DNA from: Scolanthus callimorphus
Lineage: Eukaryota > Cnidaria > Anthozoa > Actiniaria > Edwardsiidae
Assembly: GCA_033964015.1 (NCBI GenBank)
Contig: CM066923.1
Span: forward strand, 26,846,549-26,910,548
DNA: 64,000 nucleotides
Direction: 5' to 3'
The translations under genes and the position numbers were made by a program. Below, in pieces: positions 1 to 56,966 of the stretch. Numbering within the stretch: the stretch's first letter is position 1; every line of letters begins with the position of its first letter. Below the pieces are notes generated by a model, which was not told the DNA's origin, did not search any database, and saw only the letters and a program-made list of their open reading frames with translations.

Positions 1-140
1 ATTATACATGTTATGTTATTATGATTGTGATTATACATGATTATTCTGGCCATTGTATTTAGGTCGGTATTATTATACATGTTGTGTTATTATTATTGTG
101 ATTATACATGATTATTCTGGCCATTGTATTCAGGTCGGTA
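1..140 (+). repeat. 71-bp tandem duplication carrying a 3' splice site
   Basis: Two copies with period 71 (about 1-70 and 72-140). Each ends with a pyrimidine-rich stretch, AG and the first exon bases gtcggta. The upstream acceptor is tttag at 62 and the downstream one ttcag at 133. The second is the one that reads into the ligase exon. Using the first would add sequence with an in-frame TGA. More copies may lie before the window start. Confidence 0.85.
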
Positions 141-54200: not shown

Positions 54201-56966
54201 TGGTAGAGTTACCGAATGTCACTAGTGGAATTAGCTCCACATATACTTACACGTCACTTTTTGATGTTATGGCTGTGGTAGAGTTACCGAATGTCACTAG
54301 TAGAATTAGCTCCACATATACTTACACGTCACTTTTTGATGTTATGGCTGTGGTAGAGTTACCGAATGTCACTAGTGGAATTAGCTCCACATATACTTAC
54401 ACGTCACTTTTGATGTTATGGCTGTGGTAGAGTTACCGAATGTCACTAGTGGAATTAGCTCCACATATACTTACACGTCACTTTTTGATGTTATGGCTGT
54501 GGTAGAGTTACCGAATAGCACTTCCGGTGCTGTCCACTTGATTGGCACGCGTCCCTGGATCAGGAAGTTGCGTTTTACTGGCGAACTAAATGTTCATTTG
54601 TAATAGCGGAGCTCCCGCGGGCGGAGCCCCATAGCTACATGCAGGAGGCGAAGGAACAAAACAAAAGTGTATATGCATCAAACGATTCTGTCATGGACTT
54701 CCGGTTTGTGCGTCCGTCCGTTCGTCCGGCGTAACACAGGCAACCCAACCGTCAGCTAACGAGAAAGGGTATATATCTTAGGAAGGGATGAACCTCAGAC
54801 ACCAAACTTGGGTCACTAATTATTAAAAGTGGCAAGGGGTGTGCAACGGCCTGGTCACGTGGTATGACGCCATCGATGAAGTCATCAAACGAGAAAAGAT
54901 ATATACCTAGGGAAGGGATGAATCTCAGACAACCAAACTTGGATGACGTTGTTTAAGTGGCAAGGGGGGTGCGATGGCGTAGTTACATGGTATGACGTAA
55001 AGGGAAATATACGTCTCTACAAGATCGATAGCCGATACAGTAGCGGGAATGTATTATCTTTGTTGCATTTTTTATTAGTCCAGGTTCAGATTCATTTCAA
55101 TCCAGTTGCATTTGGCCAGTTGGTGCTCTATTTGGTCGTTTGTTTTGATTTTACACTGCTGTATCAGATCTGGACATGAACGGTAATCATGGTCAGATAT
55201 CCTAGAGCAAAGGGTTCGAGTTCGCTGCTTTATTCTATTCTTGCTGAAAAATCTATAAGCGTCATAAGAAATACATTTGAGCTTTTCCTGTTAAGGACAT
55301 TATAGTCGCAACTTACACGTAAGTTGTGTTGAAATAAGCTGGTGTTAGGTTAAAACATCGTAAACATTTAACAGATGACGAGACTTACCTTACGCGTGCC
55401 CATGTATCCATATTCATTATGCATGACCTTGGCAAGACCGAAGTCCGTAATTTTACACACTAAGTTTTCACCAACTAAGATATTACGAGCTGCCAGATCA
55501 CGATGAATAATCTGGGAAAAGATAAGAACTTAGTTTCGCCATCAGAATCAAGCATCGCCATCATCGTCGTTGTCGTCGTCGCCGTCAACGTTCCCACCGT
55601 CGTCGCCATTATAATATCAGAAACGTTGTGGTACTATGACGGTCTGCCTAGATCCTAATCTAGCGGTAGGATGCTAGTCCGTTTTATTAACGGACAGTGA
55701 CACAGAGCAGCTTCTTTTTTCTGTTCCCAGCTTTAAAAACTGTTTCTGAAACTCACTGATAGGGCCCAGCAGGAGTTCGATAGGGCTCAGGAGGAGGTCG
55801 ATAGGGCCCAGGAGTAGTTCGATAGGTCTGAGGAGGAGACTACTAGGCTTGGGTGGAGGTCCTTAGGCCTGAGGAAGGGGCTAATAGGGCTCAGGAGGAG
55901 GTCGAAAGGGCTCAGGAGGAGGTCGAAAGGGCTCAGGAGGAGGTCGATAGGGCCCAGGAGGAGGTCGATAGGGCTCATGAGGAGGTCAATAGGGCTCAGG
56001 AGGAGGTCAATAGGGCTCAGGAGGAGGTCAACAGGGCTCAGGAGGAGATCAATAGGGCTCAGGGGGAGGTCGATAGATCTCGTGAGGAGGTCAATAGGGC
56101 TCAGGAGGAGGTCAATAGGGCTCAGGAGGAGGTCGATAGGGCTCAGGAGGAGATCAATAGGGCTCAGGAGGAGGTCGATAGGGCTCAGGAGGAGGTCGAT
56201 AGGGCTCAGGAGGAGGTCAATAGGGCCCAGGAGGAGGTCGATAGGGCTCAGGAGGAGGTCGATAGGGCTCAGGAGAAGATCGATAGGGCTCATGAGGAGG
56301 TCGATAGGGCTCATGAGGAGGTCGATAGGGCTCAGGAGGAGGTCAATAGGGCTCATGAGGAGGTCGATAGGGCTCAGGAGGAGATCGATAGGGCTCAGGA
56401 GGAGGTCGATAGGGCTCAGGAGGAGGTCGATAGGGCTCAGGAGGAGGTCGATAGGGCTCAGGAGGAGGTCGATAGGGCTCAGGAGGAGGTCGATAGGGCT
56501 CAGGAGGAGGTCGATAGGGCTCAGGAGGAGGTCGATAGGGCTCATGAGGAGATCGATAGGGCTCAGGAGGAGGTCGATAGGGCTCATGAGGAGGTCGATA
56601 GGGCTCATGAGGAGATCGATAGGGCTCAGGAGGAGGTCGATAGGGCTCAGGAGGAGGTCGATAGGGCTCAGGAGGAGGTCGATAGGGCTCAGGAGGAGGT
56701 CGATAGGGCTCTGGAGAAATAAAAGGTGCTTGTCTTTGAAAGAATGTCAACATTGTTTCTGAATAACAATACCTTATTACTCGCCAGAAAACACATCCCG
56801 CTGGCTATCTGCTTGGCGAAAGAAAATAGTTCATATGGGGTGATTTCTCGCTTCTCCTTGATTTCTTCACAGCAGACATAGAAGCTGTCCTTCAGGCCGC
56901 GACTTTCCCGCAGGTAACCCAACAGATCACCATATGGAACGTACTCCATCAACATTAGTGTACTTT
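51292..56966 (-). CDS. Receptor-tyrosine-kinase-like gene, C-terminal half of the kinase domain and tail
   Basis: Exons in transcript order: 56966-56773, 55511-55389, 54554-54475, 52773-52733, 52460-52361, 51858-51762, 51375-51292; all phases agree, giving 238 residues. Seen: hinge [14 protein letters not shown], alpha-[12 protein letters not shown], catalytic loop [13 protein letters not shown] in ITDFGLAK, activation-loop tyrosines in NEYGYM, substrate-loop [10 protein letters not shown] (Tyr-kinase type), [32 protein letters not shown] and a short tail containing YMNI, a GRB2-type YxN site (family knowledge). The glycine loop, VAIK Lys, transmembrane and ectodomain exons are not found up to 64 kb, so the gene continues off the window across the satellite. 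Three of its junctions carry tandem duplications. It could be a cytoplasmic kinase; RTK is preferred by sequence style. Confidence 0.92.
51384..51462. repeat. 26-bp repeat, three copies, kinase last intron
   Basis: gcatgtataaaactcatacg plus aagaag recurs three times, next to the last acceptor at 51376. Confidence 0.85.
51890..52360. repeat. 31/40-bp minisatellite adjoining a kinase donor junction, about 12 units
   Basis: On the + strand the units read gataacattgatatgtactt plus acatatctgacatgccggta, or a shorter form lacking about 9 bp. The kinase exon at 52361 continues acttac|atattatcactcac...gctccgg, resembling the unit acttacatatctgacatgccgg. So each unit carries the donor gtaagta and probably a diverged exon tail. 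Read-through of the true donor gives AAT ATG TAA. Confidence 0.75.
52440..52590. repeat. Duplicated 3' splice junction of a kinase exon
   Basis: gtagggatcacctcctgcga plus gcgcaaag occurs at 52447-52474 and again at 52555-52582. On the - strand this is ctttgcgctcgcag followed by the exon start gaggtgatccctac. The copy at 52460 reads into the kinase exon; the other lies about 108 bp earlier in the transcript. Confidence 0.85.
52818..52913. repeat. 18-bp repeat, five copies, kinase intron
   Basis: acttgtattccaacgaat repeats with C/T variants. Each unit is itself partly palindromic (gtattc/gaatac). Confidence 0.88.
53693..54516. repeat. 75-bp minisatellite repeating 42 bp of a kinase exon plus its 5' splice site, 11 copies
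   Basis: Eleven units, one with a single-base deletion near 54411. On the - strand each unit holds the coding end of the exon ([14 protein letters not shown]) followed by gtgtaagtatatg and a 33-bp intronic tail. The unit nearest the real exon (54442-54516) supplies the genuine exon end and donor (GT at 54474-54473). Copies are about 99% identical. Read-through gives GTG TAA at once. The + strand frame over the array is an artefact of a 75-bp period. Confidence 0.95.
54755..54990. repeat. ~125-bp imperfect tandem duplication upstream of the kinase exon
   Basis: aacgagaaagggtatatatc ... gggatgaacctcagac ... gtggcaaggggtg recurs as aacgagaaaagatatatacc ... gggatgaatctcagac ... gtggcaagggggg. 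Confidence 0.75.
55756..56712. repeat. 21-bp minisatellite, about 45 copies, kinase intron
   Basis: The unit is gaggaggtcgatagggctcag with g/a and t/g variants. It lies between the HRDLAARN exon and the exon upstream. Period 21 keeps several frames open on both strands, so the long EEVDRAQ-like and [11 protein letters not shown] frames are not evidence of a gene. Confidence 0.93.

Follow-up and report, generated by a model that had tools for sequence, protein, structure and literature searches.

The final 64 kb of a 26.9-Mb contig of the sea anemone Scolanthus callimorphus (CM066923.1, positions 26,846,549 to 26,910,548; contig C13 of the 597-Mb assembly), hereafter the window, contains minisatellite-like arrays that run across the edges of exons. 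Six of the 62 splice junctions in the window lay within tandem duplications that carried 7–42 exon bases, and one further array started exactly at an intron. The reading frames of the host genes are intact, and among related kinase loci elsewhere in the genome the copies at one shared donor form a series. We interpret the straddling arrays, with a probability of about 0.75, as mirage-type minisatellites for which random duplication, combined with tolerance at exon edges, accounts for the pattern.

Arrays across exon edges in three genes

The arrays that bear on this reading, in window coordinates, were the following.
1..140, plus strand: acceptor array, 71-bp unit, 7 exon bp, at TRIP12-like exon 134-248; called by Tandem Repeats Finder (TRF)
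232..462, plus strand: repeats with 48/106-bp units at donor 248 of the TRIP12-like gene
1775..1862, plus strand: 43 bp x 2 array at intron start 1775, in a TRIP12-like intron
45425..45488, plus strand: 33 bp x 2 array over donor 45449 of the M13 peptidase, 25 exon bp; TRF
48513..49216, plus strand: 54 bp x 13 array over donor 48522 of the M13 peptidase, 10 exon bp; TRF
51902..52344, minus strand: intronic array of a 40-bp family, 16 bp short of donor 52361, not straddling
52447..52589, minus strand: tandem duplication of ~106 bp over acceptor 52460 of the receptor tyrosine kinase; found by alignment, missed by TRF
53692..54516, minus strand: 75 bp x 11 array over donor 54475 of the receptor tyrosine kinase, 42 exon bp (TRF count)

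At acceptor 134 the copies end in TT(T/C)AGGTCGGTA, and once the DNA upstream of the window was added the array comprised 8.6 copies, from -468 to 140. All 29 bases compared at donor 248, 17 of them exonic, recur 72 bp downstream (304-332), and 35 of 37 bases at exon start 52460 recur at a distance of 106 bp, with 14 exonic bases present in the intronic copy. The two units at 1775, a site that a first-pass annotation had listed as an intron start within a duplication, are identical at 40 of 43 positions; the array is present, and its first base is the first base of the intron, leaving zero exon bases in it. The 15-mer at donor 48522 occurs 13 times in identical form, as the true site and 12 exact extras, while that at donor 54475 occurs 11 times, as the true site and 10 exact extras, and these decoy donors match the true donor in motif score. 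The first-pass annotation was correct that the surplus copies lengthen the intron and supply decoys, which here are of equal strength.

That annotation had named eight junctions. Donors 248, 45449, 48522 and 54475, intron start 1775 and acceptors 134 (given there as 133) and 52460 stood, but donor 52361 did not: its array stops at 52344, and alignment of the donor region with the array produced nothing better than an 11-bp match with a score of 22, where 300 shuffles reached a maximum of 23. Acceptor 44709, for which TRF made a call, showed upon alignment a match of just 11 bp, no better than in shuffles, and was not counted. The arrays said to lie close to the donor at 37.2, 40.9 and 44.8 kb are indeed intronic, but they start 42–60 bp within their introns, off the junctions.

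The junctions were drawn from three gene models, which were compared with solved relatives.
134..4638, plus strand: TRIP12-like HECT ligase, 9 exons within the window, 369 residues open
36173..49708, plus strand: ECE/neprilysin-like M13 peptidase, 17 exons, 844 aa open
51292..56966, minus strand: receptor tyrosine kinase, 7 exons within the window, 244 aa

The joined exons remained open to the stop codon in all three genes (369, 844 and 244 residues, respectively), with the donor of the second kinase exon, 55394, picked so as to preserve the frame. The ligase model aligned with TRIP12 over its 369 residues without a gap, and the kinase model aligned with EGFR-type kinases over the junctions behind 54475, 52733 and 52361. 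Residues 176-844 of the M13 peptidase aligned with ECE-1; junction 45449 was consistent with both ECE-1 and Nematostella, and the C-terminal 282 residues matched a Nematostella protein without a gap. The closest relative of the whole protein was a Nematostella vectensis protein (67% identity), followed by named coral proteins at 56–61% and one distant coral match at 37%. Together, the models provided 30 complete introns and 62 ends (30 donors and 32 acceptors), and they bear out the claim that splice sites with adjoining exon bases are tandemly duplicated in unrelated genes on both strands.

Several other repeats were noted in the same genes and beyond them. Exon 1 of the M13 gene holds an in-frame 15-bp coding repeat (EETNN, 36557-36626), and a 67 bp x 4 array (4649-4919) has its first base 11 bp past the stop codon of the TRIP12-like gene. 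Around 632-1030, a tRNA-like box is followed by a body resembling a short interspersed nuclear element and a TTATTATTA tail, as judged by eye; Rfam and ARAGORN gave no match over the window, this region included. A satellite with a 12-bp unit (CTAGACGATTAT and relatives) fills approximately 6 kb (57989-64000), up to the point where both the window and contig C13 end, and no double TTAGGG repeat was present in the window. Contigs C1-C15 of the assembly measure 25.7–44.1 Mb each, and C16 measures 2.35 Mb.

A copy-number series at one kinase donor

To the window we compared kinase slices from elsewhere in the genome, taken as two sets of 20 around kinase exons. A donor at codon SDV|W, the position of donor 54475, was found in 20 of 20 kinase slices. 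Among loci with this donor, L029 and L034 have one copy, L039 has two, and L030, L031 and L032 have at least four, in a series that may mix paralogs with haplotypes. The repeated unit measures ~95 bp (up to ~124 in L032) and comprises 40 exon bases together with the intron start; TRF overlooked the straddling copies of L032 and L039, which were identified by eye. Past its last copy, the L039 intron continues with the single-copy flank of L034 (by eye), which indicates that the tandem duplication arose inside an existing gene structure; the two ends have AG in common. One, two and at least four copies at a single donor position show that the array was born by tandem duplication over an existing boundary and not through intron gain.

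These loci bear directly on the Rogers model, under which the arrays would represent intron gain under way by tandem duplication of exon sequence. Exon bases are indeed duplicated together with the splice site, the amphioxus authors put mirages forward as an intron source in the part of their paper available to us (PMC3087553), and boundary repeats were tied to novel introns in human paralogs in the available part of that study (PMC2812944). At 54475, however, the splice position predates the array, since a donor GT also occupies this codon in 16 array-free kinase slices (the next exon was not retrieved for all of them), and the duplication there made no new intron. We regard intron gain as very improbable; the first-pass annotation had proposed lengthening instead, and at 54475 this was borne out.

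An assembly artefact, with repeats collapsed or inflated, must be weighed against the same data. The 54475 copies are nearly identical, and their number may therefore be wrong. Nevertheless, point differences separate copies, the same structure recurs at separate loci on several contigs, and the two-copy cases are short, so that we give this explanation hardly any credence.

Three more straddling arrays were found: a donor array in L068 (137 bp x 3.1, 59 exon bases), an acceptor array with an 81-bp unit in L042/L043, and an acceptor array of 47 bp x 5.7 in L079. No straddled junction was detected in 20 M13 slices. In 40 myosin slices, whose junctions were scored automatically and without one-by-one inspection, none of the 40 donors or 48 acceptors was straddled, with only two arrays altogether. 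The 48522 unit, searched across the genome, was found at its own locus only, and exon 1 of the window's M13 gene had no second copy in the assembly.

A HECT gene on another contig (L124, C128:252300-253200) carries, past its true end, five repeats (136 bp) of the terminal coding segment and stop codon; because the repeats include the stop codon, the extra copies fall behind it. Considered as an acceptor mirage, this array was rejected and not counted, as by eye its start lies ~35 bp inside the last exon and its units repeat the coding end and stop. A row of matches resembling the L124 repeat lies at C15:5756227-5758650. Paired matches that score alike, one on a small contig and the other on a large one (C108/C10, C80/C10, C62/C14, C46/C10), look haplotig-like and could supply allelic copy numbers. 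Seven kinase-like open frames, all of 143.7 bits and five of them of 707 aa, stand at separate places on C1, C4, C8, C9, C12, C14 and C59 and are perhaps a multicopy element or retrocopies.

Random duplication and the question of preference

Under the mirage-type reading, a short tandem duplication (33–137 bp units in the straddling cases) would by chance cross the edge of an existing intron, and slippage or unequal exchange could later multiply the unit. The outermost copy, the first at a donor and the last at an acceptor, would stay joined to the exon and preserve the true site and frame, while the further copies, exon-derived bases included, would turn into intron and leave the coding sequence untouched. 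Duplications crossing an edge would be tolerated like intronic ones since the true site and the frame survive in the outermost copy; those in coding exons would mostly be removed, presumably by selection, and the arrays would look anchored because the exon side is blocked. By the same logic, a coding end and its stop codon should be repeatable on the 3′ side, as in the L124 HECT gene. The true site is probably the one that splicing uses, plausibly through exon definition, among decoys equal in motif strength. To account for the arrays, nothing beyond ordinary random duplication may be needed.

The random-placement control that the first-pass annotation had named gave a graded answer in the window. 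Twenty intronic arrays, each reduced to one unit, were randomly placed; the test omitted arrays 1-140 (whose intron leaves the window) and 57300-57391 and the coding array 36557-36626. For donors, 1.95 were expected, compared to four observed by strict counting (P 0.12) or five with 1775 (P 0.03); without the 52460 duplication the expectation was 1.65 (P 0.07 and 0.02, respectively). For both ends, 3.9 were expected, and five (P 0.34) or six (P 0.16) were observed. Donors and both ends were thus above expectation, with P ranging from 0.02 to 0.34 by counting rule, and these values take no account of the first-pass annotation having chosen a striking feature. The minimum array period was 7 in the TRF survey of the window junctions and 9 in the random-genome, flank, myosin, pooled and gene-span counts.

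Outside the window, 4 of 165 junctions were straddled: two each among 39 donor groups and 38 acceptor groups, and none among 88 myosin junctions. For kinase and M13 loci, groups were drawn by eye, with no tree, and received one count each; the 88 myosin junctions, some of which probably pair up as alleles, were counted singly. Junctions lacking a scored splice motif were left out, as were slices L063 and L083. A 200-kb random sample of the genome held 75 arrays over 14.8% of its sequence, with a summed unit length of 2.63% of the collapsed sequence, and included a near-pure array locus (L023, 9563 of 10000 bases); tandem duplications thus form at many sites in this genome. From this unit coverage, 4.3 straddled junctions were expected (P 0.63). 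The earlier claim that repeats are anchored on junctions as a preference is not supported at the random-genome rate, though the count exceeds the 1.0 expected at local array density.

This second yardstick weighs against random duplication as a sufficient account. At the array density of the same intron flanks, the four cases outside the window compare with an expected 1.0 (P 0.02); for the kinase and M13 slices alone, four compare with 0.7 (P 0.006), and for the window and outside pooled, ten compare with 5.0 (P 0.03). An edge preference is neither shown nor excluded by these counts and, if present, is about two- to fourfold; the outcome turns on the yardstick chosen. On the same side of the balance, use of the true site is something that we infer, and boundary repeats in human paralogs can alter splicing according to the available portion of that study (PMC2812944).

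Some details qualify these comparisons. In the donor flank, 21 of 855 positions 60–200 bp into the intron lay in a first unit; in the acceptor flank, 0 of 464 positions at 60–130 bp lay in a last unit. Several acceptor positions were moved by hand to the exon start before the pooled test, in which observed counts were entered by hand, the window expectation of 3.89 was raised to 3.95 for two half-seen introns, myosin flank lengths were approximate, and the L032 array was treated as non-straddling, which slightly raised the local expectation.

A splice-site- or transcription-tied mutational process, such as R-loops or slippage at gtaagt, would favour duplication at exon edges. Besides the local-density excess and the donor count with 1775 included (five versus 1.65–1.95 expected, P 0.02–0.03), it draws support from the 2 of 38 acceptor groups straddled, as opposed to none of the 464 acceptor-flank control positions, and from the distribution of arrays below 57.9 kb of the window, where the three gene spans hold 24 (0.98/kb) and the intervals between genes hold nine (0.27/kb). 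Conversely, the 4 of 165 matches the random-genome rate, and the myosin genes had no straddled junction, though arrays are rare there (2 in 40 slices). The ten pooled events comprised six donors and four acceptors, and GTRAGT occurred in the unit of only 1 of the 75 random arrays. Because acceptors are hit as well as donors (134, 52460, L042/L043 and L079) and the motif is so seldom part of the unit, a gtaagt-specific mechanism, as the first-pass annotation had surmised, is disfavoured; reversing the donor motif made a poor control (TGAATGGA 20 versus AGGTAAGT 2 in the random sample). Overall, we consider a splice-tied process unlikely. Equally doubtful is the broader proposition that exon edges in the gene set of this cnidarian are preferred for duplication, two- to fourfold over intron interiors, via a transcription- or splicing-coupled process, making mirages a common convergent route of intron growth in repeat-rich animals.

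The decoys might also be functional, with use of downstream donors generating poison transcripts that tune expression. Read-through past the true donor met an in-frame stop before the next copy in nine of nine cases (four window donors and five kinase slices of two groups); for 45449, L032 and L039, where an exact next copy was not found, 60 bases were read and the stop lay directly behind the donor. The equal motif score of the decoys points the same way. However, stops are frequent by expectation over such lengths, and the related loci L029 and L034 have no array. We judge a function in tuning expression quite improbable and retain random duplication with tolerance at exon edges as the best explanation.

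Relation to known boundary repeats

The kind of structure is already known from amphioxus mirages, human boundary repeats and the human 6-16 minisatellite. As far as our searches of the open-licence literature tell, what is new is a mirage series in a cnidarian, together with graded copy numbers at related loci and a rough estimate of rate. In open-licence PubMed Central, mirages by that name appeared only in amphioxus papers, and no paper was found there on Nematostella minisatellites in connection with splicing; in the accessible part of a C. elegans minisatellite paper (PMC4039745), boundary-spanning repeats were not seen. The present arrays extend mirages from lancelets to another phylum and suggest a general rule, whereby repeat-rich genomes tolerate duplications over exon edges since the outermost copy stays put.

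Introns in which as many as 13 identical donors follow one another offer natural tests of spliceosome choice, that is, exon definition versus intron-proximal preference. At an assumed ~100,000 introns, the sampled rates (4/165 overall, 4/77 in the kinase and M13 groups) imply thousands of cases, which, if the rates hold, would suffice to decide the enrichment question. Boundary arrays may also mislead gene predictors and leave predicted proteins with false repeats. The N. vectensis proteome is described, in the available portion of its source, as unusually rich in tandem repeats (PMC2805694), and some of these may be mispredicted boundary arrays.

Among the known systems, introners are transposon-made introns that carry splice sites into genes, and their copies are dispersed, whereas the 48522 unit is confined to one locus. 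The human 6-16 (IFI6) minisatellite, reportedly described by Turri in 1995, contains multiple splice donors. It multiplies the donor as the anemone donor arrays do, and its downstream repeat units serve as donors according to the part of the source at hand (PMC4526556). In the potato RdRp (RNA-dependent RNA polymerase) gene, the accessible text reports an intron gained through tandem duplication over an intron/exon boundary (PMC4974935); that duplication crosses the boundary like the anemone arrays but made a new intron, which the 54475 array did not. In human paralogs, De Grassi and Ciccarelli (2009) reported tandem repeats, mostly minisatellites, at exon-intron boundaries and retained 27 intron modifications on manual inspection; in the available excerpt, these repeats differ from one recent paralog to another, many of them tied to novel introns with transcript support (PMC2812944), whereas the anemone arrays lengthen existing introns.

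The closest likeness is to the amphioxus mirages, which the accessible parts of the two papers describe as minisatellite-like tandem duplications of exon/intron boundaries in Adh3, TnC, the globins BflGb6 and BflGb9, and PGBD5 (PMC3087553, PMC3902484). As far as these parts go, both systems share a repeat unit that includes the boundary (here at 6 of 62 window junctions and the kinase loci), involvement of both 5′ and 3′ boundaries (here donors 248, 45449, 48522 and 54475 and acceptors 134 and 52460) and splice signals in many copies. Haplotype and somatic instability were reported for the mirages; in the anemone, copy number differs among related kinase loci, which may be paralogs or haplotypes. 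In amphioxus, Adh3 data and globin reverse-transcription PCR suggest that regular splicing is undisturbed (PMC3087553, PMC3902484); here, intact frames and gapless homology are indirect signs that it may be so. In the text available, mirages are reported from cephalochordates, and their occurrence in a cnidarian near Nematostella is a difference in taxon range, not in structure.

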